Of a DNA stretch of 25,192 bases, positions 3,890-23,277 are shown one piece after another (the first letter of the stretch is position 1; every line of letters begins with the position of its first letter). A model generated the notes under the pieces. The model searched no databases. It was not told where the DNA came from and saw nothing but the letters and a program-made list of their open reading frames with translations. Origin of the DNA: a virus. Location: positions 55,097-80,288 of the IMG/VR virus record IMGVR_UViG_3300000116_000011; one strand, written 5' to 3'. The translations under genes were made by a program, and so were the position numbers.

Positions 3890-3890
3890 T

Positions 3891-4274: not shown

Positions 4275-4290
4275 TAGGTTTAAGGTTGTT

Positions 4291-4989
4291 ATGGTAAATG
4301 TTTTTTTACATGGTAAATTGGGTCAGAAATTTGGCAAAGAATGGAAACTTGATATAAGTAGTCCGCTTGAAGCTATTAAAGCTATTGATGCGAACAAAGA
4401 AGGATTCCTTGGGTATTTACTAAAAAAGAGTCAAGAGCAAACTAAATATATGGTTTTCGTTGATAAGAAACCATTAAGAAGTCAAGATGAATTAAAAATT
4501 CAAGTGAATAAAGAAGCCGAAAATATTCACTTTTTTATGGTCCCACAGGGTGGAATAGGAATGATACTTGGTGGACTTTTGGGAATGTTTGGAGGCTGGG
4601 GTGCGGGTGCTTTAGGATCAAGCATAGGTGGATTTTGGGGAGGACTATTAAGCTGGGGTGGAAATTTATTATTCGAAATAGGTGGGGCTGTATTAATGCA
4701 AGGATTAATGGATAAACTAGTGAAGGAGCCTGATCCACCAGAAATGGAAGATAGTGCTCCTAAGATGAAAAGCACATCATCATTTACTTTTTCCAGACCC
4801 ATAAATAATATAACACAAGGAGCTAGAGTCCCAGTTGGTTATGGAAGATTAAGAGTTGGTAGCACTGTAATATCATCATCCGTAATGAATTGCAGATTAA
4901 ATGCATTTGATTACTTAAATGCAACAATAAAGAAGCCAGATGGATCTCTGGAAGGAGCGGTCATTGTTGATCAGTATACTGAAAGTTAA
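4291..4989 (+). CDS. Tail assembly protein I-like, ubiquitin-fold N-terminus with Gly-rich hydrophobic segment
   Basis: A 232-residue homolog of lambda gpI. Residues 1-86 fit a beta-grasp (ubiquitin-like) domain: NVFLHGKLGQKFG, a helix at about 25-33, YMVFVDKKPL, then FFMVPQ. A Gly-Gly at 87-88 is followed by about 55 Gly/Leu/Trp-rich hydrophobic residues (89-144), which could insert in a membrane or pack inside the tip. After an acidic Pro-rich linker comes the conserved tail FSRPINNITQGARVPVGYGR (about 167-186), typical of this family. GpI and gpK are needed for assembly of the lambda tail tip and are not prominent in the mature particle. Neighbours are the JAB peptidase before and gpJ seven bases after. 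The Gly-Gly at the end of the ubiquitin-like fold, beside a JAMM peptidase, suggests a possible cleavage site; that is inference. Confidence 0.82.
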   Translation: MVNVFLHGKLGQKFGKEWKLDISSPLEAIKAIDANKEGFLGYLLKKSQEQTKYMVFVDKKPLRSQDELKIQVNKEAENIHFFMVPQGGIGMILGGLLGMFGGWGAGALGSSIGGFWGGLLSWGGNLLFEIGGAVLMQGLMDKLVKEPDPPEMEDSAPKMKSTSSFTFSRPINNITQGARVPVGYGRLRVGSTVISSSVMNCRLNAFDYLNATIKKPDGSLEGAVIVDQYTES

Positions 4990-4996
4990 GTAAATT

Positions 4997-7900
4997 ATGT
5001 ATAACCTAGTATGTTACGCTTCTAATACTACACCCAGATTGTTCAGAAGAACAATAACTGGAGACGGTTTTGGTGGAAAATTTCTAGCTGTATCTAAAGA
5101 AGATAAAGAAAAACTACAATCCACAGCATTTATGAAAATGCTGGATGTTGTATCTGAAGGCCCAATTGAAGGGTTTTGTGATGCAACTGGAGGTTTAGTT
5201 CAGGGGGCTGGAATATTAAAGGGGATTTATCTAAACGATACACCCGTACAATTAACAACATCAGACACCTCTCAAGCTGGAATTTATAATTTTAGAAATA
5301 TATCAGTAGCATGGAAAAGAGGAGAGCTAGATCAAACTCCTTTTTATGTCAACCAGGGAGAAAGTGGAGAAACTGAAGATGACAACTTTTATTGGTTAGA
5401 AGATTTTTCTTATGCATCTCAAACTATAGGAAAAAATGTTCCGTTAGGAAATCAAGTTGAACTAGAAGAGAATGACGATGGCCAGGGAAAAAGAATAACT
5501 AGTCAAACAACACACTCAGTAATGGATGAAGATGTTGACTGGCTTGGGGTTACATTAAATGTAGATCAATGTTACACCATAGATAAAGCTGGAGAGCAAC
5601 AGCCCAATAAAGGTAAAGTTATGATATGGGGAGACATAACTGGCATTACACATCGAAGCCTAGATGATGGCGTGATCGAAGAAATTATACCTGATGGGTT
5701 AAACGACTACAATGTTCTTGTTGATATTCAAGGCTTATCTTTATCTCAATACAAAGAAGATATTTGGTTGAAATTAATTGACCCGAAAGATCTCTCTGGA
5801 CCTAGACCAAGACAGATTTACATAAGAAATGTAACAGCTCAGTCATACAATTTTAAAAGTAAATTTTCAGTAACACTTGACTCAGTTACAGAAATAGTAG
5901 ACAGGAACTTTAATTACCCAGGCTCTGCTATGATTGCATCATTAGTTAATGCAGAGAACTTTGGAAATGCTCCAACTAGGTCTTTTGACATGAAACTAAA
6001 AAGGGTAAAGGTTCCCAGTAATTATGTTGAAAAATTGGAGAATGAAAAAGGGCCAACAAATTTAAGGGCATATACAAGTAGTTATGGGTCAAAGGGTAGT
6101 TCGCATACAAGCGAAGAAAGACACGAAGGAGTTTGGGATGGGACATTTAAAGAAGAATTAGAATGGACCGATAATCCAGCTTGGATTTTGTACGATATAT
6201 TGACCAATGATATTTATGGTTTAGGAGAATACATAAGAGATGTTAATTTAGACAAATGGGAATTATTTAAAATTGCCAAATATTGCGACGAACTAGTTCC
6301 AACATCAATACCAGTTGACAACTCATTTAAAAAAGAGCGGAGATTTAGTTGCAACCTTTTGCTTCAAAATCCAGCAGATGCATACAAAACTGTAAATGAG
6401 ATTTGTTCGATTTTTAGAGGTATAGCATATTTCAATAATTTGGAGATTTTTATCTCCATGAATGCTCTTAAAAATTCAATATTTAAATTCAGCAATGATT
6501 CTGTATTAGAAGGAAATTTTAGTTATGCAGGAGCTCCAAGGCAGTCAAAATTTACAGCTGTAAAAGTAGCTTACAAGGATAAAGAAGATTCATTTTTAAC
6601 TAAATACGAATACGTAGAAGATCCCGAAGGCATCACAAGATACGGCTGGAATCTAAAAGAAGTAACGGCTGTCGGCTGTACTTCTCGAGATCAAGCATTA
6701 AGGACTGCTAGGTGGATTTTATTAACTTCAGTACTCGAGGAAGAAACTGTAAGTTTTACAACAGACAGTCAAGCAGAACATATAGAACCAGGGCACATTT
6801 TTACAATATATGATGAGTTAAGAAATGGATTTAAAGTAGGGGGGAGAGTATTAGAAGTGGTCGATGATAATCCTACCCCTAGTAAAAATTATGTTTTTAT
6901 AGATCAAAAATTAGATTTAACAAAAAAATACACAAGCATAAGCTTTTTAATCCCTGATGAAGATGTTAATCTAAATGAATCTGAACATTATATTGAATTT
7001 ATACATAGAAACGGACAGCATCAAGGTGCGTCCGATGGAGGGCAAAGAGATGCTGAAATAATTCCAATAAACTCAGAAAGATCTGCAAATACAAATTTAA
7101 ACAATTATTTTGAAGTAACTACATCTGGAACTAAAATATTAACTCATCAAAACGAAGATTTAATTCAAAGAATTCCAAAAGAAATAAGCTTTATAAGTTC
7201 TTCAGCTGGATACAAAACATTCAATGATTATTTTCTTGCTACAAATGTTTTAGCTGGAATGCCTAGAGGAGATGAAAGAAAATCAGTATCAACTAAACTA
7301 AAGGAAGGAGCCTTGTATATATTGCATGGAGAAGAAGCTGATGGGTCTACAGAAGCTTTTGATTCTAAAGAATATCAATTGTTAGGTAAAACAGAAAATC
7401 AGGATGGAACATATTCTATGATTGCAATGGAATATAATAGGGAAAAATTTAGCCAAACTGACTCTTTATCAACAATATATACAGCCAGGACAGTTCCATA
7501 CGACCCGACTCCAGCAAATAGACCATCAGCTGGAGGTGGACCTTTACCTCAATTTGATGACGATCCCGACGATAATACTCAAGTACAAAACTTAGGAGCT
7601 CCAGAAAAAAATACTATTGAAGTTATAATTGCTGCGACTGGATATGTAAATTCAGAAGGGGTTACTAGATCGAGAGCAAATTACTTCATACATAATTTAG
7701 AGGAGAATGAAGATTACTATAATCCAGATGTAACAAATTTTGGAAATTACTTCATGCGAGTGCAAAGAATCACTGAAGAGTACTACAGAAGTCTCGTGGT
7801 GACAAAAATGGGTAACAATGATACAAATTTATTACAAAATAATGAATGGAAGGTTCCTGGTCTCAAACAAAAATGTGGATCAAATAAGATTTTATGGGAT

Positions 7901-10900
7901 CTTAGTTTGGGTGCAGATCGAGACAAAGCTAGAGTTGGAGGAAGTAATAATTTAACAGTTAGTCTGCCAAACTATAAAGATTCTAAATTTACTCCATTTC
8001 TTGAAGTTGCTCACCCGAGATATGAATCTGAATTTGATGATTTAGCAATAGATGGTTGTGCAATATTTGATGCAGATGCATATGAAGCTAGAGTAACTGG
8101 TGCGGTATCTGGAGAATTTGAACTCCCTGATTCAAACGGTTATTACGAATTGAGATGGTCTGAGGCTAACGATTTTGGAAGATCAGAGGAAAAAGTAATG
8201 TTTTTCAGGGGAGAGCCTGACTTAATACCTCCCGACCCACCCGACCACTTTAATGTATCTCTAAACCCATTATTTCCGAATAACTTAAGCTTTAGATGGG
8301 AAAATGAATCTCCAGATAGAGAGTTAGATTTAATAGGATTTAGATTATATACTGGATGGGTAGGAGGAGAAGTTCCAGAATTTGAAAATACAAATTTAGG
8401 AGAAGAAGGGGCTGGGGGTTACAACGAATACAGATTACCTAAAATAGGATCTTCCTTTACAGAAGTTGTAGGTAAATATGCATCCCATACCGTTTATGAA
8501 GCAGATACAAGTAGAGGGTCTTTTGCTGATTTAAATGGAAATCCTTTAGGTATAGGAACGAATGCTATGTTCCATATAAGAGCATTTGATGTAGCAGGAA
8601 ATTTTAGTGATCCAAGAAATAGTAATTTAATTAGTTTATTTGATGTGGCTGTAGCTCCAGACTTATATCTTTCTGGAGAAATAAGAGAAGAAGGTAAAGG
8701 AACTGATACATATAGGCAGTCTCCAATACTTCATGCATTTTACTCAGGACAATTTCACAACGACAAAAGTTTTAAAAAATATTTTCTAAAAATTAATGAT
8801 GAAACCTTTGGAGTGTCCAATCACTCAATAAATATTTTTCAGGAAGATATAAAAACTGCACCAGCACAATATGAAGCTGGTGCATCTGGTCATCTTGAAA
8901 TAAGAGAAGTAACAGCCAACACAGAATATTTCGGAAAATTATCGGCTTTCACATCAGAAAACAGAGAATCCTTAGTGGCAACTTCTACTGCAAAAATAGG
9001 TAAAGATAATTTTGCTCCACTAAAAATTAAAAACTTTGAAATTAGAAAACAGTTTTCTGACTTTGAATTTTCCTGGGATCCTCCTCCAGAGGCGGATTGT
9101 AATAGAGTCCTACTTTATACTGGAGTAGGTAAAGATAATTTTGGAGAAGTTACTGTAGATCAAAATAAAATCATCGAAATTGCAAAAAATAAAAATGGAT
9201 TAATTGCTTCGGTAAATAAAGACGATAGACCAGTATTTCCTATATCTAGATTTGACGATGTAATACAGTACAAAAATGCTGCAACTACATATCCATTTCA
9301 CATTCTTCCAGTAGATACTTCTGATAATACAGGAGTTTATACAGATGCAGAATTTAAAACGGTGGACATGTCTCCTCCTGTTCTACACACTAGTGGAACA
9401 GTAAATGAAGCAGGTCAAGGATTAGTTCATGTTTTTTACTCTGGAGTAGCTCAAGATGATAGTACTTTTCAATACTATCTTACCGAATATAAAGATATTA
9501 ATTCTTTCGATATTAAGACCTTCCAAGGGAAGGACAAAGCTGCTTATAATGATAGCGATACTTATGGAGGATCAGGGCATTTTGTATTTGAGGCAAATGG
9601 AAATACATTTTACGATGTAAAAACTAGAATAGTTTTAAGTAAAAATGAAACTGATTGGGCTACTGATACAATTTTAAGCAATGAAATTTATGATGTTGTA
9701 TCAGATCATGTTTATGTACCAAGAGATTCCAAACCTCCAGGAAAATTAGAAAGATTCAGGGTCAGTAAAGAGTGGTCGAATTTTAGATTCTCTTGGGATG
9801 AACCTAAAGAAAATGATGTAGTAAAAGTTTTACTCTATACTGGAATTGGTAAAGAAAATTTTGATTTTACAGTAGAAGAAGAACAGTCAACCACAAAAAT
9901 AGAGGATCTCCCAATAGATTACTCGAGTCCCTTTGCTTCAGTTCTTCCTGATGATGCACCCTCTTTTGCAATAGATAAATTTAATAAACCTGGTTCAGAA
10001 TCATACGAAAACACAAAATGGTATTTTCATGCATTGGCCGTAGATAGCTCTAATAATACAGGAATGTATGTGGATACATCATTTGAATATGTTAATTTAG
10101 ATGGTCCAGTAGTTCATACCAGTGGAGAAATAACATCAGATGGCAGGTCTGTAATACATGTATTTTATTCAGGACAGGAACAAAACGACGATTCTTTTAG
10201 ATATTATTTCACGGAGTATCAGAATGTTGAGGAGATGACTTTATTGGGTCAAAGAGATTCAACTAAAGCCTTTCATAACCCTGGGGTTCTTGGAGAAGGT
10301 TCGGGGCATTATATTTTTGAAGCTAAAGGAGATAGTTATTATGAAGTAAGAGTCAAATCTGTTTTTGATATTTTTCAATCAAATTGGGCTGATGATACAA
10401 TACTGACAAATAAATATTATGATATAAAACCTGGATATGAGGACTATATATATGCTGCTCCAGATAACATCCCACCTGGTACACCAACTTGGATTTCTTC
10501 TCAAAAAAATGGAAATAATATATTTTTAAGCTGGGAAAATCCAGGTGACCATGATTTAGAGCATATACATTTATATACTGGAACTGATATAGCTACAGTT
10601 TCAGAAGATGAATACTCTTTTTCAGACCAAAAAAAGGTTGCTATTCATCAATCGACGATAGCAATTTCGGATATAATTCCATTAAAAGATTTTTCTGCAA
10701 ATGCGGGTAAGAAATTTTATTTTTGGCTTCAAGCTGAAGACACATCGAACAATAAAGGAAAGATAAGCGAAAGAAGATTAGTGGATGTAGGAAGAACAGA
10801 AGCTTTATTTAGAGACGAAGTAAGATGCACTACTGGAATAATTAATGACGATGGGGGTGATGGAACATCTTATGCATTTATAAATTATTTAATAAATGAT

Positions 10901-13900
10901 GATCCGCTCAATAGGCAACATTTATCTTATACTATACAACTATCAAAAAGACCAAGCTTTAACCCATTAATAGGAACACAAGAAATTCCTGTACAATATA
11001 GTGACGATGATGATGATTTAAAGGTAAGATATCCTGGCAGGAATATTGGAAGCGGAATCTTTAGTAATTTAGAAGCTAATCAAACATATTATTTAAGAGC
11101 AAGAATCAATGAGCATGACGGAAAGCAAAGCCAGTGGACTTTGTCTTACGATAATCCAATAAAAACTCCAAAAGATTCAACTCTCCCAAAAATTCCAAAT
11201 AACTTTAATATAATTTCAGGACCAAAGCAAATATTCTTGGAATGGGATTGGGATCAAGGCATATCAAAAGATACTGATAGTATATTGGTTTATAAGACAG
11301 GAATACCGACAGGTATAGTAAAAGAAGATTCTGTTGAGCCTACTTTAGCAAACCCAAACACTAACTGCTGGAAGATGTCTCATATTAGCGGTTATTTCTT
11401 TAATAATCCAGAATTATATACATACAAACTTTCAGCATCGACATCATATATTGATAATGATGTAGAAACAGGCATTAATGGAGAAAGTATATACTATTTT
11501 TATTTTTTAAGGACGTTAGATAAATCAGACAACTTAAGTAAGCAATTTGTATCAGGAATATCCAGAGATGTTCATAATTATTATCCTGTAAATAAAGCTA
11601 AAACTATTTTCTCAAACGAAGCTAACTTAGCATTTGGGGAAACCCCTCACACTCAAGGATATGTGACTGGAGGAGCTGTTAGTGCAGATTACATATCTAA
11701 TATATATGCAAGCAGAATTTTAACTGATAGAATAACTGCAGCAGATTTTATATTATCACACCCAAGCGGAAGAGTTTTGAGTGATAATGTATTTACAAGA
11801 GCTGTAGAAACTCCACAATATGCATATTCAATAGGAAAGGGTGTATACTTAGACCATAAAATGTTCAGAATAGGCGACCCTTCTCCAGGAGGGTACGGAT
11901 TATTCTGGACTGGTCATAAAGAATATTCTGATTCAGATTTTACAAAACCTACATTTTCAAAAGACCCAGATGGTTTTCATGCCATAGATATAGATCCAAA
12001 CACTTTAGAGATTAGAGGAAATTTAACTGCTGGAACTATTGAAATTGGAGCAAGTAGAACTTCGGCTTTTAATGTTGACTCAGAAGGAAACTTAACAATC
12101 GGAAACCAAACAAAAGAAATCTCTGGATTCTTTAAGGGAGAGCTTGGTGTTAGTGGTATTTTTGGGGAAACATATGAGGGATACGATTACGATGATCAAT
12201 ATTCTTCTGTATTTGTACAAATTGAAACTGATCATTTAACTGCCATAGAAAAAGCGGCTATAAGGCCAGGAGTATATCTAGAAACAAACTGGAAAAGAGG
12301 TCCTTTTTATTATGGCTGGGAGATAGCTCAAGTAGAATCATTTAACCAAAGTAATGGTATATTGAAACTTGAACTTCCTGGTTTAGAATACAACGGTTTT
12401 GATTTTTATAATTTATTTGGAAATGCATACGGATTAAGTGGAGTTACTACCACAGGATCAAGAGATTGGGATTCAAATAATGTACCAGTCGTTAGAGATT
12501 ACTGGAGAATACATGATGCTAAATTTAAAGTCACTAAAGACGGGTCTTTATTCGCTGCAGATGCAAAAATTTTAGGAACTGCAAAAGCAGATGCACTAGA
12601 AGTTGGACAAACAATTGTTCTAGGAGACACTTACAATAGTTACAGTAGTGTAATTCAAAGTTATAATTTTGATGATGATTTTAATCCTTGTGACCCAACA
12701 GAAGATGCTCGAGGTTGGAAGATTGTAGGTGATGGAACAGCATACTTTAAAAGTATTGACATTCGTTCGGGTTTACTTAGCGGGTCCATGGGATTAATTA
12801 TAGGAAATGGATGTTACGATAATGCATTTTTTAGGGTAACAAGTAAAGGTGATATATCTATAGGAAGAAGCTTAGTTTATCACAATAACCCATTCTATGT
12901 TTCCAGAGAAGGAAATTTATTTGCTCAAGATGCTGAATTTAGAGGAGATTTAAATATTTCTGGTAGAGTGGATGTTGGAGATGGAATGAGATTTGGTAGC
13001 CATGTTACTAGAGACAGATTCGGAACAGTAATTAGTGCTACAGATGAAGATGGAATTTTAATCAACAGATTTGGATTGCAGTCTACTAATTTTCAGCATG
13101 GATCCGACAAAGGGTTCCAGTTAACACAAAATGGTAAAGCAATTTTACATAATTTAGCCGTAACTGGAGGCTGGATAAGTGGCGCAAATCTATTGATTGG
13201 AAGAGGTTCCAGAGACAACCCATGGTTTAAAGCATTTTCCAATGGAGATATAAGTTTAGGAGATTATGCAGGAGCCAAATGGACTACAAATGGATCTTTA
13301 AGTACAGCTGCAACAGCTCCAAGCAAGAATCACCCATTTTTTGTATCTCGGAAAGGAACTCTCAAAACTAAGGATGCTTACATCATAGGTGATGTTGGCA
13401 TATCTGGCAATGTAGATGTTGGAGATGGTATAAGATTTGGATCTCGGGTCAATAGAGACGAATACGGAAATGTTACATCGGTAACAAAAGATACAAATGG
13501 TATACTTATAAACAGCAGTGCTATGCGCTCCATAAACTATCAAAGCGTTTGGGATGGTACCACAAAGAGTTTTTATTTGGGCGCTGATGGAGAAACAATA
13601 CTAAGCGATCTTGTAGTTAGAGGAGGAAACATTAGTGGGGTCAAAATGATGATAGGTAAAGGAACATCAAGCGAACCTTGGTTAAAAGTTTGGGATGATG
13701 GAGAAATCAGCATAGGATCTTATGGATATAGTAATAGAAATAGAGCTCCTAAAAACACGGATCCATTTTATGTAGACAAACAAGGCTCTATGTGGGCTCA
13801 AAATGCATTTGTAAAAGGAACAATCACTGGAAGATACGGAAGAGTGGGCAGTTTGATCATGGATCCAGACTGGTTATCAACATCTCACCCTGATTATGAT

Positions 13901-14641
13901 GTACCAAGAACTAGCAACAATTTACAAACTGTAGCTGCTGGAGCGCATAATGCAAGTACAAATCCATATAGGGTTGGTTGGTATATAAATTCAGAAGGGC
14001 ATTTTTCTGTGGTAAATGAAGCTGGAAAACTTTTTGGATGGGCAGGTGAAAATCAATATTTAACAGTAACTGGTTTAGCGAGCAGCTCTAAAGATAATGC
14101 AATATATGAAACTACCAGACATCCCTCAAATTACGATCCGCCAGACCCTAATACATATGGTAAAGGATTCCTTCTTCAGGGAGAACACATGGGTGGATGG
14201 ATATCTAATTTTAGAACAGACCCAAAAAGTGCTTGGGGTATAGCAAATCAAGTTATTACTTGCATACATGGAGATATTAGGTTACCCGTTTTAAATGATT
14301 TATATACAATAATATCAAATAGTCCTATAGGATACTTTGTTTCAGGTATATATCTAGAGACTGATGTGGACAATGCCACTGTTAGGTTTACTAAAAACGA
14401 TCCTCAAGCAGCTGTGCCAAGTATATTGGGGCCTGAAAATAAATATGGAAACTTCACGGCTACAAAAGCTGGTTATTATACAACCTTGAGTAATACAAAT
14501 AAAATAGAACCAGGAGCAAACAAAGATTCATATCTAGTTGCTAAACCAACATCCGTGGGAACTAATACCAGCATAAGATTCAGGATAGATTTATATAGAC
14601 AGGGCAGTTATACGAAAAACACTGCAGATGCATCTTGGTAA
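4997..14641 (+). CDS. Tail tip host-specificity protein J-like, giant fibre with tandem FN3-like domains
   Basis: A 3214-residue central tail-tip/fibre protein, nearly three times lambda gpJ (1132). The N-terminus has the gpJ signature FMKMLDVVSEGPIEGF (residues 45-60) and ends its first block with GIYLND. Residues about 394-482 carry further conserved blocks: IYGLGEYI, the IAKYCDELVP segment and RFSCNLLLQNPADAYKTVNE with FRGIAYF. From about 1075 to 2190 lies a string of fibronectin-III-like and related beta domains in a period near 240 residues. From about 2250 the protein carries phage tail repeats of the kind FYVSREGNLFAQDAEFRGD, with three longer copies starting at 2592, 2725 and 2877. 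The C-terminal 250 residues are unique and probably contact the receptor. In lambda, gpJ forms the tip hub and binds the receptor with its C-terminus. The gene begins seven bases after gpI. The start is less certain because MYNLVCYAS is not typical of the family. Confidence 0.9.
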   Translation: MYNLVCYASNTTPRLFRRTITGDGFGGKFLAVSKEDKEKLQSTAFMKMLDVVSEGPIEGFCDATGGLVQGAGILKGIYLNDTPVQLTTSDTSQAGIYNFRNISVAWKRGELDQTPFYVNQGESGETEDDNFYWLEDFSYASQTIGKNVPLGNQVELEENDDGQGKRITSQTTHSVMDEDVDWLGVTLNVDQCYTIDKAGEQQPNKGKVMIWGDITGITHRSLDDGVIEEIIPDGLNDYNVLVDIQGLSLSQYKEDIWLKLIDPKDLSGPRPRQIYIRNVTAQSYNFKSKFSVTLDSVTEIVDRNFNYPGSAMIASLVNAENFGNAPTRSFDMKLKRVKVPSNYVEKLENEKGPTNLRAYTSSYGSKGSSHTSEERHEGVWDGTFKEELEWTDNPAWILYDILTNDIYGLGEYIRDVNLDKWELFKIAKYCDELVPTSIPVDNSFKKERRFSCNLLLQNPADAYKTVNEICSIFRGIAYFNNLEIFISMNALKNSIFKFSNDSVLEGNFSYAGAPRQSKFTAVKVAYKDKEDSFLTKYEYVEDPEGITRYGWNLKEVTAVGCTSRDQALRTARWILLTSVLEEETVSFTTDSQAEHIEPGHIFTIYDELRNGFKVGGRVLEVVDDNPTPSKNYVFIDQKLDLTKKYTSISFLIPDEDVNLNESEHYIEFIHRNGQHQGASDGGQRDAEIIPINSERSANTNLNNYFEVTTSGTKILTHQNEDLIQRIPKEISFISSSAGYKTFNDYFLATNVLAGMPRGDERKSVSTKLKEGALYILHGEEADGSTEAFDSKEYQLLGKTENQDGTYSMIAMEYNREKFSQTDSLSTIYTARTVPYDPTPANRPSAGGGPLPQFDDDPDDNTQVQNLGAPEKNTIEVIIAATGYVNSEGVTRSRANYFIHNLEENEDYYNPDVTNFGNYFMRVQRITEEYYRSLVVTKMGNNDTNLLQNNEWKVPGLKQKCGSNKILWDLSLGADRDKARVGGSNNLTVSLPNYKDSKFTPFLEVAHPRYESEFDDLAIDGCAIFDADAYEARVTGAVSGEFELPDSNGYYELRWSEANDFGRSEEKVMFFRGEPDLIPPDPPDHFNVSLNPLFPNNLSFRWENESPDRELDLIGFRLYTGWVGGEVPEFENTNLGEEGAGGYNEYRLPKIGSSFTEVVGKYASHTVYEADTSRGSFADLNGNPLGIGTNAMFHIRAFDVAGNFSDPRNSNLISLFDVAVAPDLYLSGEIREEGKGTDTYRQSPILHAFYSGQFHNDKSFKKYFLKINDETFGVSNHSINIFQEDIKTAPAQYEAGASGHLEIREVTANTEYFGKLSAFTSENRESLVATSTAKIGKDNFAPLKIKNFEIRKQFSDFEFSWDPPPEADCNRVLLYTGVGKDNFGEVTVDQNKIIEIAKNKNGLIASVNKDDRPVFPISRFDDVIQYKNAATTYPFHILPVDTSDNTGVYTDAEFKTVDMSPPVLHTSGTVNEAGQGLVHVFYSGVAQDDSTFQYYLTEYKDINSFDIKTFQGKDKAAYNDSDTYGGSGHFVFEANGNTFYDVKTRIVLSKNETDWATDTILSNEIYDVVSDHVYVPRDSKPPGKLERFRVSKEWSNFRFSWDEPKENDVVKVLLYTGIGKENFDFTVEEEQSTTKIEDLPIDYSSPFASVLPDDAPSFAIDKFNKPGSESYENTKWYFHALAVDSSNNTGMYVDTSFEYVNLDGPVVHTSGEITSDGRSVIHVFYSGQEQNDDSFRYYFTEYQNVEEMTLLGQRDSTKAFHNPGVLGEGSGHYIFEAKGDSYYEVRVKSVFDIFQSNWADDTILTNKYYDIKPGYEDYIYAAPDNIPPGTPTWISSQKNGNNIFLSWENPGDHDLEHIHLYTGTDIATVSEDEYSFSDQKKVAIHQSTIAISDIIPLKDFSANAGKKFYFWLQAEDTSNNKGKISERRLVDVGRTEALFRDEVRCTTGIINDDGGDGTSYAFINYLINDDPLNRQHLSYTIQLSKRPSFNPLIGTQEIPVQYSDDDDDLKVRYPGRNIGSGIFSNLEANQTYYLRARINEHDGKQSQWTLSYDNPIKTPKDSTLPKIPNNFNIISGPKQIFLEWDWDQGISKDTDSILVYKTGIPTGIVKEDSVEPTLANPNTNCWKMSHISGYFFNNPELYTYKLSASTSYIDNDVETGINGESIYYFYFLRTLDKSDNLSKQFVSGISRDVHNYYPVNKAKTIFSNEANLAFGETPHTQGYVTGGAVSADYISNIYASRILTDRITAADFILSHPSGRVLSDNVFTRAVETPQYAYSIGKGVYLDHKMFRIGDPSPGGYGLFWTGHKEYSDSDFTKPTFSKDPDGFHAIDIDPNTLEIRGNLTAGTIEIGASRTSAFNVDSEGNLTIGNQTKEISGFFKGELGVSGIFGETYEGYDYDDQYSSVFVQIETDHLTAIEKAAIRPGVYLETNWKRGPFYYGWEIAQVESFNQSNGILKLELPGLEYNGFDFYNLFGNAYGLSGVTTTGSRDWDSNNVPVVRDYWRIHDAKFKVTKDGSLFAADAKILGTAKADALEVGQTIVLGDTYNSYSSVIQSYNFDDDFNPCDPTEDARGWKIVGDGTAYFKSIDIRSGLLSGSMGLIIGNGCYDNAFFRVTSKGDISIGRSLVYHNNPFYVSREGNLFAQDAEFRGDLNISGRVDVGDGMRFGSHVTRDRFGTVISATDEDGILINRFGLQSTNFQHGSDKGFQLTQNGKAILHNLAVTGGWISGANLLIGRGSRDNPWFKAFSNGDISLGDYAGAKWTTNGSLSTAATAPSKNHPFFVSRKGTLKTKDAYIIGDVGISGNVDVGDGIRFGSRVNRDEYGNVTSVTKDTNGILINSSAMRSINYQSVWDGTTKSFYLGADGETILSDLVVRGGNISGVKMMIGKGTSSEPWLKVWDDGEISIGSYGYSNRNRAPKNTDPFYVDKQGSMWAQNAFVKGTITGRYGRVGSLIMDPDWLSTSHPDYDVPRTSNNLQTVAAGAHNASTNPYRVGWYINSEGHFSVVNEAGKLFGWAGENQYLTVTGLASSSKDNAIYETTRHPSNYDPPDPNTYGKGFLLQGEHMGGWISNFRTDPKSAWGIANQVITCIHGDIRLPVLNDLYTIISNSPIGYFVSGIYLETDVDNATVRFTKNDPQAAVPSILGPENKYGNFTATKAGYYTTLSNTNKIEPGANKDSYLVAKPTSVGTNTSIRFRIDLYRQGSYTKNTADASW
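8220..11560 (+). repeat. Five-fold ~240-residue supra-repeat in the gpJ-like gene
   Basis: Two domain types alternate. Type B has a D/P-x-PP start, an F-x-F-x-W-strand and ends in LYTG; the LYTG tyrosine codons start at 8348, 9116, 9836, 10574 and (as VYKTG) 11291, giving spacings of 256, 240, 246 and 239 codons. Type A has HTSG, then HVFYSG and a DDSF-x-YY strand; its YSG codons start at 8741, 9437 and 10166, with a diverged fourth copy near 10800-10950. The second and third B copies are most alike (FEFSWDPP / FRFSWDEP, LLYTGVGKDNF / LLYTGIGKENF). The copies are conserved as protein rather than as DNA. Confidence 0.8.
12770..13860 (+). repeat. Three C-terminal fibre repeats in the gpJ-like gene
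   Basis: Copies start at 12770, 13169 and 13625, so the steps are 133 and 152 codons. Each begins with a Gly-x-(I/L)-S-G turn, then (L/M)IG-G, a hydrophobic F/W-F/L-K/R strand, G-(D/E)-ISIG, and a NPFYV / HPFFV / DPFYV strand followed by (R/K)-x-G and an (A/D)A-x-(F/I) strand. The first two copies continue with nearly identical VDVGDGMRFGS / VDVGDGIRFGS segments; the third lacks that part. Such repeats are common in phage tail fibres and in the C-terminal parts of gpJ-like proteins. Confidence 0.75.
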
Positions 14642-14874: not shown

Positions 14875-17800
14875 ATGCCATTTGACCAAATATATTGGAA
14901 TAATTACGGTGCAATAGCAGATATAGCTGAGCTGGGCCATTTTGTAAAAAGTTCAGCTCACGATGTGAGATTTGGCCAAACAAAAACTGAAGATAGTCAT
15001 TCTGTTTTTAGCTTTGCGGGAGAGCGTAGAGATAGAATTATGGAGTTCTATAATCTATATTATTATGATGGTAGAAATCCATATAATGAAAGAAATAGGG
15101 AAGAAATATATAAAGTTTTTTATGATCCAAGTTTCGATGGATATGATCAAAATGATCCAAGTAGATCGAGGTATGCAATGGGATCAGAGCAGCCTTATGT
15201 ATTTGGCTGGCCTGACATGGAAAGTTACGAAAATCAAGTAGCCACAAATACTTTTTACGGAAACACGGTAAATAATATGACCGTAGATGATATAGAAAAT
15301 GTTTATACACAAAAAAGAAATTACTCAAGAAAGATAAACCCAGATGATGGTAGTGTATTAAATGAGGGAACAAGTTCGCACTCTACACTTTCTGATGATT
15401 TATTTCAAGCGCAAAACAGAGAGAGCTGTCATTGGCTGTCAAATACTGCTCATGCTCATACAGTAGAAAATCCTTTCATAGGAATACATAAAGACAATCC
15501 AATCACCGTAACAGCAGATAAAAATTTTTTAGGATATGCTTTAGTTTTAAAAAGAAAAAGATATAACTATTGGGAGAGAAATTTAAGATTAGTACACCCA
15601 AATGGTTACTCAGCAATTGATCCAAGACCATTTAAACAACACAAAACCGATTACAGAAGAGTATTTCTTGGTTCCTGGAATCAATATCATGAACAAGTGG
15701 GTGATGCATCATGGAATCAAACTAACTGGTATCATGTAAAAAGAGCGGGTTATACATGGACAATAGGAGTAAATTGGGATAAATATAGAAGAACCAAAGA
15801 TAATGCAAATTTTAGAATAAAAGTTCCAGATTCAGATGGATATTATCCTTATGAAGATGAATGGACTCCGACATTCAACACTAATGTAGACTGCTTTACA
15901 GGAGGAGGAGGGGATGGAAATGGATACTTTGATGTTGAAGCATATGTAGATGGAGAAGGAAACCAAATATATTATTCCTCTGACGAAGCAATAGAGTACA
16001 ATGAAGGATATAATTATCCAAGCAATATGAGCAAATGCACTGAGTTTAAAATGATATGGGTGGAATACCCCTCGGATTGCCCAGGAAGTTTTATTGATTA
16101 CGATTCAGACGGTTCTACTGTTTTATTTGATGACAACTTGTGTTCGGAATTTGCTTTGTTCGATGAATCAGCAGGTGATTACCATGATAAAATATGGGAA
16201 GATTTAGATACATTATCTAACGATTCTTCCTTGGAGAGTGACATAGATTATTCGATTTATTCAAATAGTATATATGGTGGTCCTAATATAATGTTTATGT
16301 ATTATCCAGACCAAGGAGGATGTCCTTGGAATATTGTTCAATTGTATACAAAATACTGGTGGCAACACAGAGGGGGGTATTGCATGAAGAAAAAATCTCT
16401 AGATGATGCGGGCGTAGAGAGCACTAAACCAGTAGCATATGGCTACCAACAATCAACATGGGAGTTTATTTACACAACAGCAAGAAGACAAAACCAAGGC
16501 CTTGGATGCTATTTAAAAACAGTAAGAAGTTGCAATAGCAATGAGAACGACCCTACTGGATTAAATTGGTGGGGATATACAGATGCTAAAATGAATTTTT
16601 GCACTAATTTAATTGCAGATTCTGAATTTTATGATTGGATGGATGGATGTTATTGGACAGTAGACCACTGGATGTTCAGTTCAAATAGATCATCAGCACC
16701 ATCAAATTTTAATACAATAAAAGATAGCGGAAATAAAATTTTAACAGATAAATGGTTTTTCAGACAACCTGGAACTGCAGGAAGCTCTTATGATGGTTTA
16801 TTTGAAAATTCAACAAATCCAGTATACCTAAAAATAGGAAGACCATTGGATGCGAATAATACAAATGGCTTTTCAAATATAAATGGTACTTTTCCATTTG
16901 GAGCAGTTGGAGAACAATATATAGAAAGTAATAGCTCTAATGCTGTTGGTGAAAGATTTTGGGATGTAGATAACTATGATATGGTACAGCGAAGTGGAGC
17001 TGCATGGCTACAATATAATATGTTTTTTACAAGAATGCCAAAAATTGGTCATGCTGCCCCTCAGCCATTAAGCACTACCACACAAAATAATAATCATTTA
17101 GGAAATTTCTCTGTAGTAGATATTCATGAAGCTAGGCACATAGAAAGTTATGTACAGCCTTATATTTATCAACAAGATTTTACAGATGGATACCCAAGAG
17201 CTCATCCATATTCTATTTATTGGACATCTTTCTTTCAAGTCACAGACAATGATGACCTTCCAATGTTTCCAGAAGATTATTTTCATGAAGGAGAAACTTT
17301 AGCCAAGCATAAATGGGTAAGCGATCATGCTTGGTGGGAAGGTGATTCGTTTTTTGGAGATTATTTAGGTCTTCTTGGGGACACTCATAGAGCATACAAA
17401 AATTCAGAAGGGAAGTATGAAATTGAGAGAGTTTGGTGGAAAGATAGTATAGATGTTAAAGATGCGGCAATACATCCATCTTACAGTAAAAGGCAATTGA
17501 CTGATACTGGTTCTATTTACTTAAAAAATATGACGATTAAAAAGAATGGTAATGTATTGCATGCATGGAAAGATACCATAGGAGAATGGATAGAACAACC
17601 TAGCTCGGAAATATATACAGATAGAAGTAGTAAAATAGTAGCAACCAATACATCAAGCAATAGAAAAGTGATAACATTTTCAAACATGTATTCTAATAAT
17701 AATAATAGATGCAAAAGATATTTTGACACAAGTTTTCAAATAAAATTTGGGAATAGTACTACATGGCATGAAATTTCTGCAGTCAATAATGGTAATATTG

Positions 17801-19353
17801 TTTTGACTACAAGCCCGAACTCACTAAGTAATTCTTCTTTTACATTAAGAATACCAAGGGGCTCCCCAAATGAAGATTATACATGGGGAAATTACAAACT
17901 TTCAAATTTTGATGGAGATAATTATACGTTAAATAGAGCTTGGCAATTGGGAAATCAAAATGATGTAACCTGGTTTGAGTTATTTATATCAACGCCAGCT
18001 GAGACTGAAAAAAGTTTATATGAAATATTTAATACTTCCTGGTGGGGAGATCAATCATCGGGAGGAATAACAGGAAAACCAGACAGGCATCCATTTTTTT
18101 CTAATGAGCTTTCTGAATCTCTTCACATTAGAAATGGATTTACCAGCCTAGCATACTGGCAAGATTCTTACTGGAATAATAGAGCTGGACAATTTGGGCA
18201 TGTCTCTTCAAAAGTCAAGGGTAATGTGAACTGGGATGTGGCAAGTTGGGTTAGTTATTGGGAGTGTGCTCATACAGTTTATGACGGCCCATGGAAATCT
18301 ACAAACAATGGAGAGCCAGTAAATTATAATCTTGATTTTGGAGAGCCTGGGGATAGTGAATATTGGAAGGGTCCAAGAGGAGATGATGTTTACCCATATC
18401 AACAAGACTTTAATAAACCAAACTATAATCCTGTTGGTGGATGGATTCCTCCCACACCAATGGGAAAGGGAGATTATAGACATATTAGACCGCCCGCTGT
18501 GAATATGGCAAATTATGCAACAGTTCAAGCTAGCTCTGCAGGATGGTTTAGTAATTTAGATAATTTTACAATGGATCCAGGCATAGCTGCCCCCGTTAAA
18601 GACACTCAAGGAAATTCAGTTAATTTTAGAATTAATTCTTTTATATTTGGGGGAATGGATAAAGCTTCTGGAGCAATATGGCCTGGATATGGTTATGATC
18701 AATCAGTAAGATACTTAATAGGAGATTTAGATACGAATATAGAAAACAAAGCTGATTGGGCTAGTATGATGGTGGATGCATTTGGTATACCCGATACCAG
18801 CGGAAATGTTCCATTGATGCCATATCTAGACAGGCCATGGATGGCATTTTCCTCATTTAAAACTTTTCCCGCACTAACTGCATATTATCAAATAGGGCAA
18901 AGAACAAATTACGACACCGACATAGCTTCATTTAATATGACTTCATTAGAAAATGCTGGAAATAAAGGTAGTACTCTTGGAAATTTCTGGAAAGATAATA
19001 GTGCTGGAAAAGCATTAAGAAGATCTGCTGTAGAACCAGCGGAAAAATCTAGATTAGAAAAAAGTTTATTGAATGAATGGGTATTAGCATCCTATGGATA
19101 CGATAATGATATAATGGGGTGGGGAAATAAAACAGCGGGAACAGAACCTCATTTTATAACTATTTTTGAGAGTAATGAGTTTATAAAAAAAGGAACTACA
19201 TTTTCAGTATCTTTTCAACAGGCTGCTACAGCATTCAATAGAGAGTTAGAAAGAACTGCTGGAGGCTACAGTGAAATTGATGAGACTTTAGGTATGGGAA
19301 GAACAACTATAGATATAGATAGTTACGAACTTTACCTTTGTGCCATACCTTAA
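14875..19353 (+). CDS. Large Trp/Tyr-rich protein of unknown family, probable tail fibre or receptor-binding protein
   Basis: A 1492-residue protein that I cannot assign to a family. It lacks a signal peptide, membrane segments and obvious long repeats. It is unusually rich in Trp, Tyr, Asn, Asp and Ser, with many aromatic clusters such as KYWWQHRGGY, LNWWGYTD and DHAWWEGDSFFGDY, as seen in carbohydrate-binding surfaces and adhesins. Cysteines are concentrated around residues 340-600 (for example PSDCPG, GCPWN, YCMKK, GCYLK, FCTN, GCYW). The N-terminal 60 residues (IYWNNYGAIADIAELGHF) would be the likely attachment end. Its position downstream of gpJ, where phages place fibre and host-range genes, supports a structural role. 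Codon and base use look like the flanking tail genes. The stop overlaps the stop of the converging gene on the other strand. Confidence 0.65.
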   Translation: MPFDQIYWNNYGAIADIAELGHFVKSSAHDVRFGQTKTEDSHSVFSFAGERRDRIMEFYNLYYYDGRNPYNERNREEIYKVFYDPSFDGYDQNDPSRSRYAMGSEQPYVFGWPDMESYENQVATNTFYGNTVNNMTVDDIENVYTQKRNYSRKINPDDGSVLNEGTSSHSTLSDDLFQAQNRESCHWLSNTAHAHTVENPFIGIHKDNPITVTADKNFLGYALVLKRKRYNYWERNLRLVHPNGYSAIDPRPFKQHKTDYRRVFLGSWNQYHEQVGDASWNQTNWYHVKRAGYTWTIGVNWDKYRRTKDNANFRIKVPDSDGYYPYEDEWTPTFNTNVDCFTGGGGDGNGYFDVEAYVDGEGNQIYYSSDEAIEYNEGYNYPSNMSKCTEFKMIWVEYPSDCPGSFIDYDSDGSTVLFDDNLCSEFALFDESAGDYHDKIWEDLDTLSNDSSLESDIDYSIYSNSIYGGPNIMFMYYPDQGGCPWNIVQLYTKYWWQHRGGYCMKKKSLDDAGVESTKPVAYGYQQSTWEFIYTTARRQNQGLGCYLKTVRSCNSNENDPTGLNWWGYTDAKMNFCTNLIADSEFYDWMDGCYWTVDHWMFSSNRSSAPSNFNTIKDSGNKILTDKWFFRQPGTAGSSYDGLFENSTNPVYLKIGRPLDANNTNGFSNINGTFPFGAVGEQYIESNSSNAVGERFWDVDNYDMVQRSGAAWLQYNMFFTRMPKIGHAAPQPLSTTTQNNNHLGNFSVVDIHEARHIESYVQPYIYQQDFTDGYPRAHPYSIYWTSFFQVTDNDDLPMFPEDYFHEGETLAKHKWVSDHAWWEGDSFFGDYLGLLGDTHRAYKNSEGKYEIERVWWKDSIDVKDAAIHPSYSKRQLTDTGSIYLKNMTIKKNGNVLHAWKDTIGEWIEQPSSEIYTDRSSKIVATNTSSNRKVITFSNMYSNNNNRCKRYFDTSFQIKFGNSTTWHEISAVNNGNIVLTTSPNSLSNSSFTLRIPRGSPNEDYTWGNYKLSNFDGDNYTLNRAWQLGNQNDVTWFELFISTPAETEKSLYEIFNTSWWGDQSSGGITGKPDRHPFFSNELSESLHIRNGFTSLAYWQDSYWNNRAGQFGHVSSKVKGNVNWDVASWVSYWECAHTVYDGPWKSTNNGEPVNYNLDFGEPGDSEYWKGPRGDDVYPYQQDFNKPNYNPVGGWIPPTPMGKGDYRHIRPPAVNMANYATVQASSAGWFSNLDNFTMDPGIAAPVKDTQGNSVNFRINSFIFGGMDKASGAIWPGYGYDQSVRYLIGDLDTNIENKADWASMMVDAFGIPDTSGNVPLMPYLDRPWMAFSSFKTFPALTAYYQIGQRTNYDTDIASFNMTSLENAGNKGSTLGNFWKDNSAGKALRRSAVEPAEKSRLEKSLLNEWVLASYGYDNDIMGWGNKTAGTEPHFITIFESNEFIKKGTTFSVSFQQAATAFNRELERTAGGYSEIDETLGMGRTTIDIDSYELYLCAIP

Positions 19354-21023
19354 CTACAGCTTCCAACCCCGCTACAATTGTGACCTGTTACTACCTTTTT
19401 GAATATAACATCATACTCAGTACAATACGGAGAAGTCCAATCAAAATATGAAGCGCCCAAATTGGTATTAGGGTGATTATGGGCTACACATTCTTTACCT
19501 GCTTCTTTCATTACATATTCTTCTGCAGCAGGCGAATTCGTTCCACAGGCATTCCTACAATACCACGAACTTGTTCCACCAAGTCCATTAGGTCCTGGAA
19601 TATGTTTACTGTACCGACTGCAAGTTTTCGCCCAAGGCTGACATGGAGGGGGAGGCGGATTTGGTGGAGGATTAGGCGGTGGCGGAGCAGGTGGTGGAAC
19701 ATTAGGTGGTGGAACATTAGGCGGTGGAGTAGGAGGAGGAACAGGGGGAGGAGGACTAGGTGGAGGAACACTACAACCGCAGCCTGCTGACCCATTACAA
19801 TCTGCAACCATCATGTAGCCACAAAAGTCATTACCAGTCATGTCTTTTGAGTCACAACATTCTTGTCCAGCAGATGTACATTTTGATGGAACAGGAGTTT
19901 GTTGAGGGTGGTCTCCACAAGGATCACCATCTTCATATTCGCCCCCTTCTGTTGGGTGCCATACAGTAGCTTGTCCCTTCGTACATCTCATTCTCGTTTT
20001 ATCAACACTTATTGAGTGATTAGATCTTCCAGGGAAAAATATATTTACATTTCCGCTGTCTGGTCCCGTAAGAGCTGACATCATTAGCGGCATAATAAAT
20101 CTATTGTATCCAATTGGTTGAATTAATCGATTTAAAATAGCTTCAGCATAATGACTTCTATTTGGTTTTAAAATAGGAGTTTCTTTATCGACTCTACTCA
20201 AAGGATTTGAGTCTAATAAAGTATTAATTGAATTGATATCTATAGATCTTCCATGAGCATACATATTTTGCTCAAAAACAGTAAATCCAACACTGACTCT
20301 AGTTTGAATTCTCCTATTGACAAAATTAGTTTTTCCAGTTTTGTCTATTGTGGCCTCTTCTATTTCTGCAACATTTTGAGTATCGCTTATGGATGAAAAA
20401 TCTACATTGTTTGCTATCCTAGCAGAATGCTGACTTACCCAGTCGTTAATAGTAGGTTTTTCATTAAATGCCCTCCTTACTCTTGTTCCATAATCTGGAA
20501 ATGTTGCCATTTTACCTTTGTTTGCATTATATATTGCAGTTTCTATAGGTTGATCAAAAACAGTTACTGTTTTGGGGCTTCCGTTTTCTTCAGTAACTAC
20601 ATCAAAAGTAGTATTTATAGGATTACCCCTTATTATAGTTTGAAGAGATCTAAAACTGATATCACCTTCACCAGTATCGGTACTAACTATTACAGTAAGC
20701 ATCAAAGTAACAACCTCACCAGGTTGAATATTTTTTACTTTTAAAATCGGAGAATCTCCTGTGTTTTTTAGAAATTCAAACTCAACAAAAGTTTCTTCAA
20801 ACTTCGCTCTTTTAAAGTTGCTTTTCCATGTTTCTATATTCCAATTGTAATTAGTAACTTCGGGTAAAGAATAAAATTCTGGGAATTCTTTGACTAATTC
20901 CATATCAGTTTCATCATACACCCATGTAGCTCTAGGTGCTACTATTGCATTATTCCCCTCAATTCCTTCTTCGTCAGACCTTGGAGTTCTCCAAACACTA
21001 TGATCAACAGTTATAAATGCCAT
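19350..21023 (-). CDS. Pro-tract and cysteine-rich protein of unknown family, probable virion adhesin
   Basis: A 557-residue protein in three parts. Residues 1-346 contain no cysteine and look beta-rich with an Ig-like stretch around 92-133 (VKNIQPGEVVTLMLTVIV). Residues 347-417 carry nine cysteines, including SAGQECCDSKD and SAGCGC. Residues 420-460 are a Pro tract (31 of 41 residues Pro, mostly PPP plus one spacer), followed by 97 residues with eight more cysteines. A rigid proline stalk joining two disulfide-type domains suggests an exposed stalked adhesin. I chose ATG 21023 (MAFITVDH), two bases after the upstream stop; an ATG at 21077 would overlap that gene by 52 bases. It is second in a two-gene minus-strand unit. 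Its stop shares TTAA with the stop of the converging gene. No family was recognised. Confidence 0.68.
   Translation of the reverse strand: MAFITVDHSVWRTPRSDEEGIEGNNAIVAPRATWVYDETDMELVKEFPEFYSLPEVTNYNWNIETWKSNFKRAKFEETFVEFEFLKNTGDSPILKVKNIQPGEVVTLMLTVIVSTDTGEGDISFRSLQTIIRGNPINTTFDVVTEENGSPKTVTVFDQPIETAIYNANKGKMATFPDYGTRVRRAFNEKPTINDWVSQHSARIANNVDFSSISDTQNVAEIEEATIDKTGKTNFVNRRIQTRVSVGFTVFEQNMYAHGRSIDINSINTLLDSNPLSRVDKETPILKPNRSHYAEAILNRLIQPIGYNRFIMPLMMSALTGPDSGNVNIFFPGRSNHSISVDKTRMRCTKGQATVWHPTEGGEYEDGDPCGDHPQQTPVPSKCTSAGQECCDSKDMTGNDFCGYMMVADCNGSAGCGCSVPPPSPPPPVPPPTPPPNVPPPNVPPPAPPPPNPPPNPPPPPCQPWAKTCSRYSKHIPGPNGLGGTSSWYCRNACGTNSPAAEEYVMKEAGKECVAHNHPNTNLGASYFDWTSPYCTEYDVIFKKVVTGHNCSGVGSCS
19644..19766 (-). 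repeat. Proline-codon repeat (PPPx), G-rich on the plus strand
   Basis: About 120 bases encode residues 420-460 of the minus-strand protein, dominated by PPP triplets separated by S, V, T, NV, A or N. On the plus strand this reads as runs of GGTGG, GGAGGAGG and GGGGGAGG, in sharp contrast to the AT-rich surroundings. Short units such as GGTGGTGGAACATTAGG occur twice in tandem, which suggests growth by slippage or unequal exchange. Confidence 0.85.
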
Positions 21024-21025
21024 AA

Positions 21026-23257
21026 TTAATAATCCTCGTCTACTGGGTAAGTTCTTCCTGGTGTGAAATAACCCCATGGATCAGTTATCCATTCATCTCC
21101 TTCTCCTGATTCATCAGCATCAACGAATTCAGTCCAGACAGTTTCATCTGTATAAAAATCAGAGTCGTCGGTTCCCAAGTAACCTTCTGGGTAACCGTCG
21201 ATTTGATTTCCATAAGGTCCATCATAGTCGGTAAGATGTGGGGTATAATGAACATGCGGCTTTCTATGAGTATCAACAACTACATGCCACTGTCTATCCA
21301 TTAAAGTTGCTATTCCAGAAACACATGCATTATTAATATCTGGTATTTCTACATCATATTCTACTTGACCTTCATACATATCAGGCCTCATGGAGTAAAA
21401 AACTGCATCTTCTGGACCATTATAATATTTTTGGCCAGCTAAATTTAAATATCCATAAGTCGAATTTGATAAAATGCAGGCCTGTATAAAATGCCAGCAT
21501 CCTGTTTGATTTAAAGCATTTCCAGAAAGATTACAGTGAACAAATTGATTACTAGCTATAGGAACAGGAAGCAAGCCTCTATTGAAGAAATATTCGCTTT
21601 TGGAATCTAAATCTTCACCAAAATAGAAAGGGCTTCTCAATCCGCTTGGAACTTCCCTCTGTAATCCATATGGAAAAGTTGTTTTATCAAAATCATCATG
21701 ATATCTATGAACTCCATTCCATACATTTAATCCACAATTAACTATCTTTAATTGTTCTATGTCACTAGTTAATGCTTGAGGAAGAACAAGGTCAGTAAAA
21801 TTTTTACATCCAGAAATTTTTATTTCTCTTAAAGCACGTTGGTTAATTAAATAGTTTTGATTGGGAATTCTCATTCCGATAATAGTATCATTATCGAGTA
21901 TATTGACATTTCTGTATTGCTGAAATCTATTACCTAAATATCCACTAGGAGCACCAACATACCAATAATTTTCTTCGGAAAAAGAATTATCTACACCATT
22001 TTCATCTAGATCCCCTTGATTCCCGCTTGCATAAAATGTATGTAGTGGATAAGAGTGATCCATACTCATAATAGATGAAAATACAACTTCATTAACTTTT
22101 TTTGGTTTGGCTCCAGTAATATAAACGACTTCTTCTGTATTATTTGCATCAACAGATTTATTGAAATAATATTCAAGACCATCATACTGTTCTTGAATCT
22201 GAATTCTAGTAGGCTGAGTTATTACACCTGGAGTTCCAGAAGAAAAAACACCTCTATGAAACCAATTTTCATCAGCAGGAACATCACGTACCATTTGATA
22301 CATATGTCCCGCAGGACCTTTATTTGAGCCATCCTGAATGCAATAAGAACTACTTTCAAAAATAATTTTATAATCTGTTCCAGGAAATAAATCCATGCCA
22401 TAAGCCCAAAACTGATAAGGTATTTGACCAGTTGTATTAAATCTAAGATTATAAACAGCATTGGTGTCGTCACTTCCATGGTAACCCGTAATGGAACCAG
22501 TAATAACAGCTGGATCAGAATGCATATCACCAGTAACATATAAATAATTATCAGACCTATCTCCTGTTAACCTAGCTTGAAACATATACGGACCAAATTG
22601 AGCCAACTCAAGATTTCCCATTGTGGATACATCATATCCAGAAACCCCACTAATTAAGTCTTTATCAATTACATATTGTAATTCTTCACAGGTTAAAAAA
22701 TATTTAAGTTTTCGACTTAGTCTGTTACCATCTTTATGCTTGTACCCAATTCTATAGTGACATTCTCTTAAAGGCGCATAGTCTTTAAAGTTCATATTAC
22801 CACTAAACCAAGGTCTAACTTGACCATACGTAGCAAACCAATGTTCATAATCTTCCGCATCAACTTCATAATCTGGGTCGTCTGGCCAAGGGTATGTAGG
22901 TTCAGGTATAACTTCTAATCTTTTTTTCGTGTCTTCATAGCTCATAAGGGGGAATTCCTTACTTGATAATTCGCTATTAGAGCTAGAAGCAAAAGGGTCT
23001 TTTACGAAGTCTCGATTAATAGACATTCCATGATCATTAGGCGTAAATCTATTTAAATCGACTTCAATTCCAAAATATTTAGAAACATCTCTTACATACT
23101 TGTACGGATTGTTTACTAAATCTCGATATCTTACGGGGTCTTGAGGTCCAGTCCAACCTAGAGAACCCACTTCCCAGACTCCTCCTTTAATGCTAATTTT
23201 ACCAGCAATGTGCCCTTTTACCACTCTAGGAATTGGATTTTGAGAATTTTCTGCCAT
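21026..23257 (-). CDS. Large structural protein of unknown family with a leucine-rich stretch
   Basis: A 743-residue protein that opens the minus-strand unit. The N-terminal 50 residues (VVKGHIAGKISIKGGVWEVG) look beta-rich, followed by a Pro/Asp/Trp-rich region. Residues about 475-612 have LRR-like spacing of Leu/Ile and Asn/Cys: LREIKISGCKNFTDLVLP, IEQLKIVNCGLNVW, CNLSGNALNQTG and YLNLAGQ, which resembles a short irregular leucine-rich repeat domain. The C-terminus is acidic and Asp/Glu/Tyr-rich. No signal peptide or membrane segment is seen. The reading frame also has an ATG at 23263 and a GTG at 23275; I prefer 23257 because it gives MAEN, like the gene at 24569, and leaves the promoter-like motif outside the coding region. 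The next gene begins two bases after its stop. A host-binding or decoration role is inferred from context only. Confidence 0.65.
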   Translation of the reverse strand: MAENSQNPIPRVVKGHIAGKISIKGGVWEVGSLGWTGPQDPVRYRDLVNNPYKYVRDVSKYFGIEVDLNRFTPNDHGMSINRDFVKDPFASSSNSELSSKEFPLMSYEDTKKRLEVIPEPTYPWPDDPDYEVDAEDYEHWFATYGQVRPWFSGNMNFKDYAPLRECHYRIGYKHKDGNRLSRKLKYFLTCEELQYVIDKDLISGVSGYDVSTMGNLELAQFGPYMFQARLTGDRSDNYLYVTGDMHSDPAVITGSITGYHGSDDTNAVYNLRFNTTGQIPYQFWAYGMDLFPGTDYKIIFESSSYCIQDGSNKGPAGHMYQMVRDVPADENWFHRGVFSSGTPGVITQPTRIQIQEQYDGLEYYFNKSVDANNTEEVVYITGAKPKKVNEVVFSSIMSMDHSYPLHTFYASGNQGDLDENGVDNSFSEENYWYVGAPSGYLGNRFQQYRNVNILDNDTIIGMRIPNQNYLINQRALREIKISGCKNFTDLVLPQALTSDIEQLKIVNCGLNVWNGVHRYHDDFDKTTFPYGLQREVPSGLRSPFYFGEDLDSKSEYFFNRGLLPVPIASNQFVHCNLSGNALNQTGCWHFIQACILSNSTYGYLNLAGQKYYNGPEDAVFYSMRPDMYEGQVEYDVEIPDINNACVSGIATLMDRQWHVVVDTHRKPHVHYTPHLTDYDGPYGNQIDGYPEGYLGTDDSDFYTDETVWTEFVDADESGEGDEWITDPWGYFTPGRTYPVDEDY

Positions 23258-23263
23258 ATTCAT

Positions 23264-23277
23264 TATAATATACACAA
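23264..23277 (-). promoter_or_regulatory. TTGTGTATATTATA motif, left arm of divergent promoter region
   Basis: Read on the minus strand, TTGTGTATATTATA continues as AT, and the preferred start codon of the 743-residue gene lies six bases after the 14-mer. It matches exactly the motifs at 4260-4273 and 23303-23316. The embedded TATAAT looks like a -10 element; no -35 hexamer is evident, since the upstream sequence is an A/T run. Confidence 0.55.

Follow-up and report, generated by a model that had tools for sequence, protein, structure and literature searches.

Why would a bacteriophage encode a protein in which a proline rod separates two cysteine-rich modules, and is that rod modified by enzymes of the phage itself? 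The question is raised by a 557-residue protein encoded in IMG/VR virus record IMGVR_UViG_3300000116_000011, an 80,288-bp lambda-like phage record whose right end (55097-80288; 25,192 nucleotides) is the window analyzed here. The best explanation as a whole, to which we assign a probability of roughly 0.35, is a stalked tail protein with cysteine modules of an extracellular type and a rod that is hydroxylated by a phage enzyme. The cysteine-free N-terminal region would anchor the protein to the virion, and a rigid polyproline rod would separate the two small cysteine-rich modules and hold the tip off the tail. The cysteines would pair once the particle exits the reducing cytoplasm, and a prolyl 4-hydroxylase (P4H)-like enzyme of the phage would probably hydroxylate the rod, to which sugars and sulfate may then be added. 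Hydroxylation of the rod is a tentative prediction that we treat as a serious possibility, with a plain, unmodified linker about as likely; that the rod is also glycosylated or sulfated seems unlikely.

Architecture of the stalked protein

The gene is an open reading frame (ORF) at positions 19350..21023 of the window on the minus strand, stop codon included. Translation confirms what a sequence-only reading of this DNA had proposed: all 17 cysteines lie within residues 347-556, with none in residues 1-346, and a 41-residue PPPx tract divides them into groups of 9 and 8. The interval singled out in that reading, 19353-19985, is exactly codons 347-557. The protein can accordingly be divided into four parts, all on the minus strand. 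Residues 1-346 (19986..21023) form the cysteine-free region, a presumed virion anchor for which we found no relatives. The first module, residues 347-417 (19773..19985), has cysteines at positions 347, 369, 382, 389, 390, 401, 409, 415, and 417; the stalk comprises residues 420-460 (19644..19766); and the second module, residues 461-557 (19353..19643), has cysteines at positions 461, 468, 489, 493, 512, 534, 550, and 556. In a post hoc test, 17 cysteines placed uniformly over the 557 residues would all fall within the final 211 with a probability of 6.8e-8.

A mechanical ORF caller offers an alternative start 18 codons upstream, which would yield 575 residues. We consider the 557-residue start likelier because its start codon lies 2 bp past the stop of the upstream gene. 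A second viral contig (L001), 99.6% identical across 15.8 kb, carries the same ORF with S412P as the sole difference, which means that the layout did not arise from a mistake in a single assembly. The stalk is the sole strong polyproline stretch of the 80-kb record, reaching 12 prolines per 14 residues versus at most 5 anywhere else. Ribosomes stall on long polyproline tracts in the absence of EF-P. Extensins are characterized by a signal peptide and numerous Ser-Pro3-5 repeats, and the phage protein fails to match them, having, as judged by eye, a single serine in the tract and no hydrophobic N terminus.

The 557-residue protein has no convincing match in PHROGs, NCBIfam, or PDB (best PDB match, E = 0.034). 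Pfam returned only a subthreshold match of the second module to Toxin_32 (E = 0.015; 15.5 bits versus a cut-off of 25), and a domain-by-domain query of PHROGs at E values up to 10 gave a single match at 0.17. A tblastn search of 50,697 phage records yielded nothing at E values up to 1, genome contigs held no relative, and among viral contigs the near-identical contig was the only relative found. When the three parts of the protein were compared with the 3968 ORFs of our collected loci, only self copies matched. Tail genes L and J, used as queries, recovered the same or nearly the same phages plus one 4-kb fragment at 82%. Protein, phage-record, and contig searches alike revealed no divergent homologs, and no homology to any known tail protein was found. 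Structure prediction of the whole protein without an alignment gave a mean pLDDT of 34.8, with no residue at or above 70.

Placement among tail genes

Tail genes flank the stalked-protein gene on both sides. To its left, lambda-like tail tip genes span 2975..14641 on the plus strand and include a homolog of lambda tail protein L (Pfam, E = 9e-41), a JAB-domain (K-like) protein, a homolog of I, and then a 3214-residue protein in the place of J, a label that reflects position and size only. To its right, a tail protein with BppL_N-type repeats (Pfam, E = 6e-16) begins at 24569 on the plus strand and runs past the window end at 25192. Because tail genes lie to the left and right, we infer that the 557-residue protein is probably a tail component of the virion.

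A P4H-like enzyme in the same record

The same record encodes, at L009:16421-17506 on the minus strand, a 2-oxoglutarate (2OG)-Fe(II) oxygenase (PF13640, E = 9.3e-14). Its best PDB matches are 5c5t, a prolyl 4-hydroxylase (5.7e-10) that we take to be the PBCV-1 enzyme, followed by 2jig (5.7e-9) and 3gze (5.8e-9), both presumably the Chlamydomonas enzyme. Eight of the nine PDB sequences at E values up to 0.01 are named prolyl 4-hydroxylase or procollagen-proline dioxygenase, and the ninth, 3gze, is named "predicted protein." The phage enzyme aligns with 5c5t and 2jig and retains the HxD...H iron triad and the 2OG lysine (H239, D241, H319, and K329). We describe it as a prolyl-4-hydroxylase-like enzyme with putative activity on peptide proline.

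The gene belongs to a packed minus-strand run (L009:7907-19975) with gaps of at most 40 bp, which also codes for two other 2OG-type oxygenases, GT31, GT47, LicD, and sulfotransferases. The Fringe/GT31 enzyme (E = 3.8e-17) has as its best PDB matches a beta-1,3-glucosyltransferase (2.3e-12) and a core-1-type galactosyltransferase (3.8e-10), and the GT47 exostosin scores 34.6 bits versus a cut-off of 33.4. Seven of 20 scanned proteins of the record are sulfotransferases above the Pfam cut-off, six of them Sulfotransfer_2 and one Sulfotransfer_1.

Proline tracts and oxygenases in environmental viral contigs

A PPPx codon pattern identified at least 120 loci in viral contigs, with the proline frame being the longest ORF in 54 and not in 66, and oxygenases were counted in the records of at least 15 kb (37 of the 54 coding-tract records and 40 of the 66 other-frame records). 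Among the loci listed, PF13640 is present in 9/37 coding polyproline records versus 1/40 frame controls (Fisher P = 0.0056). As a second control we used loci drawn by a PhoH pattern, 40 of 120 for record searches and all 120 for tract comparison; PF13640 is present in 2/40 of these records. When families were merged by eye, the counts among the loci listed became 6/32 versus 3/80 (P = 0.016). For five of the six polyproline families, roughly 2 kb or less separates the oxygenase gene from the tract gene; in the sixth (L047), the distance is about 73 kb.

Proline-rich linkers beside cysteine-rich modules also recur in these contigs (L132, L128, L078, L064/L084, L144, and L168), and 2OG-oxygenase genes are present in the L132, L064/L084, L144, and L168 loci. 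The clearest layout is at L132:7084-9147, where a 687-residue protein has 45 cysteines in modules divided by polyproline linkers and a P4H-like gene follows 730 bp downstream. The sequence-only reading had called the layout unusual for a phage protein, which fits the empty phage-record search and is at odds with this recurrence. The environmental proteins differ from the 557-residue protein in having no detectable homology to it, and several of their stalks consist of PPFF, PPSF, or PPPF units instead of PPPx with S/T/N/V/A. One 834-residue ORF with polyproline and apparent membrane segments (L126), in a contig classed as viral, looks eukaryotic by eye and not phage.

The association was also approached from the enzyme. 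Using a P4H-like query (A2; seed L084), we took the best 80 of 550 relatives and counted 79 loci (L134-L212), leaving out L088, which had already been found through its tract; the tracts of L134 and L136 belong to the same family as that of the seed. A proline tract (at least 7 of 14 residues) is present in 45/79 oxygenase loci versus 3/120 PhoH-pattern loci. These tracts are mostly PPFF, PPYF, or PPSF repeats, and the tract proteins examined in full appear FN3-like by eye. A whole-record search of 20 of the 80 loci found a PPFF-type pattern in 13 of the 20 long records, all of which carry 3 to 11 PF13640 genes. Of the 51 tract ORFs in these loci, 47 have an oxygenase ORF no more than 2 kb away, versus 35.2 expected by permutation (P = 5e-5).

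Two further features of these loci were recorded. In L141-L149 and L155-L211, PPFF/PPYF-repeat proteins are encoded close to 2OG oxygenase arrays with as many as 11 members, and a Hint-like motif, CVDGDTLILTSE, comes after some of these stalks. Collagen-like G-x-y repeats occur near 2OG oxygenases in 20 of the 79 loci, a count made without a control, and are a possible alternative P4H substrate.

Weighing the explanations

Several results weigh against a rod hydroxylated by a phage enzyme. The stalked protein and the modification of its rod are predictions from genes, and the P4H and tract genes are not neighbors but some 57 kb apart. Strict polyproline (10 of 14 residues) is present in only 4 of the 79 oxygenase loci, adjacency within 100 bp is not significant (25/51 versus 20.4 expected; P = 0.10), and per-record rotation tests of the nearest tract gave P values of about 0.10 to 0.32. 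The 79 loci come from related phages, since clustering placed all of them in one group, and 50 of 59 tract proteins, clustered from these loci plus eight seed loci (L046, L049, L063, L084, L088, L108, L125, and L132), fell into one cluster. Because the loci are mostly one phage family, their counts are not independent, and locus clustering was unusable as a source of independent units since everything merged. Sulfotransfer_2 shows no enrichment in records with a tract (1/26 versus 0/40 over the cut-off), and the idea that sulfotransferases generally belong to the stalk system was dropped. In the phage-record collection, none of six loci, of which four surround relatives of this P4H and two surround relatives of an environmental oxygenase, has a convincing tract in its flanks of 8 to 12 kb (less where the record ends sooner); one 102-residue antisense ORF among them reaches 7 prolines in 14. 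Likewise, none of eight cyanophage or Rhizobium-phage oxygenase regions, taken from the 355 phage records in which an oxygenase matched, has a repeat tract (at most 8 prolines in 14), and in S-CAM9, P-RSM4, and S-ShM2 the oxygenase lies between a recombination gene and a DNA primase-helicase gene. In the phage-record collection, a general rule linking tracts to oxygenases does not hold, and many phage 2OG oxygenases must therefore have other targets.

A rival explanation is a plain stalked tail protein whose rod is a stiff, unmodified linker, with the P4H, glycosyltransferases, and sulfotransferases acting on glycans of the host or virion surface or on other proteins. We consider this a plausible account, if short of an even chance. 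The distance between the P4H and tract genes and the P4H relatives without proline tracts in phage records speak for it, as does the interpretation of cyanophage clusters of glycosyltransferases and 2OG oxygenases as capsule-polysaccharide modification (PMC7824862). Against it, environmental contigs combine proline tracts with PF13640 genes far more often than the controls do, and the PPPx tract is the sole strong polyproline target that the record offers. A nonvirion protein, released late at lysis or displayed on the cell surface, for example in superinfection exclusion or contact with a eukaryotic cell, would suit both a gene on the strand opposite its neighboring tail genes and the secreted look of the cysteine-rich modules; the tail genes on both sides and an N terminus that by eye has no hydrophobic signal make it very improbable.

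The cysteines themselves could be held by zinc or iron rather than by disulfides in both modules, as the sequence-only reading also allowed. Phage proteins arise in a reducing cytoplasm, and histidines are present in both modules, as such a metal site would favor. However, no two of the 17 cysteines have CxxC spacing, which disfavors zinc ribbons, and no zinc-ribbon family in Pfam matches at E values up to 1, leaving metal binding quite improbable. Modules of the disulfide type are somewhat favored. The proposal of a stalked tip whose disulfides form after lysis is plausible, given both the position of the gene among tail genes and the extensive disulfides held by virions of the Agrobacterium phage Milano (PMC10811340). 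Milano likewise has cysteine-rich virion proteins, at 2.1% of residues in its structural proteins (PMC10811340) versus 3.05% in the 557-residue protein. Its disulfides cross-link components of a contractile tail, namely, sheath, tube, and baseplate (PMC10811340), whereas the cysteines of the 557-residue protein are confined to two modules flanking a polyproline rod.

Relation to known systems

The extensin-like description was close, but the layout is a better fit to the pherophorins, cell-coat proteins of volvocine green algae in which a hydroxyproline rod bears two globular domains (PMC9818292). Pherophorins consist of two domains and a proline-rich rod that is hydroxylated and carries highly sulfated O-linked sugars (PMC9818292). 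The phage protein similarly has a proline-rich rod (residues 420-460) between two domains, and the phage encodes the matching enzyme classes, namely, P4H-like, glycosyltransferase, and sulfotransferase. Unlike pherophorins, it has no pherophorin-type domain in Pfam at E values up to 1, its source is a phage and not an alga, the P4H gene lies 57 kb from the tract, and the modification of the rod is a prediction. The 557-residue protein resembles pherophorins in layout, shows no sequence homology to them, and is not a member of the family.

The closest enzyme of known structure, 5c5t, points to the prolyl 4-hydroxylase of chlorovirus PBCV-1. For the chlorovirus enzyme, which hydroxylates proline-containing peptides, the role is described as unknown (PMC7019647). 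It differs in belonging to an algal virus, and no stalk protein is tied to it in the available part of that report (PMC7019647). Elsewhere, the viral use of prolyl 4-hydroxylase is said to remain "cryptic" (PMC9301287), and a DNA-repair proposal for a phage 2OG oxygenase has been repeated, though it is at odds with the authors' own phage (PMC9146016). Searches of the open-access literature retrieved no title or abstract opening that ties phage oxygenases to proline-rich tail stalks.

The broader proposal is that some bacteriophages build hydroxyproline-rich glycoproteins, in which proline-repeat tail stalks with cysteine-rich or FN3 modules are hydroxylated by phage P4H-like oxygenases before being glycosylated or sulfated. 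We regard it as rather unlikely. If true, it would provide a bacterial-virus counterpart of the algal pherophorins and a substrate for a sizeable class of phage-encoded 2OG oxygenases that are listed without a role. In marine phages, 2OG-Fe(II) oxygenases with no assigned substrate are numerous, and a proline-repeat tail stalk is a concrete candidate that can be tested with two genes.

Neighboring genes

Neither the window nor the rest of the record, scanned as three 20-kb pieces, yielded any tRNA genes. A 1492-residue orphan at 14875..19353 on the plus strand converges on the stalked-protein gene and overlaps it by 4 bp. The upstream gene at 21026..23275 on the minus strand encodes a 749-residue orphan and is probably coexpressed with the stalked protein.

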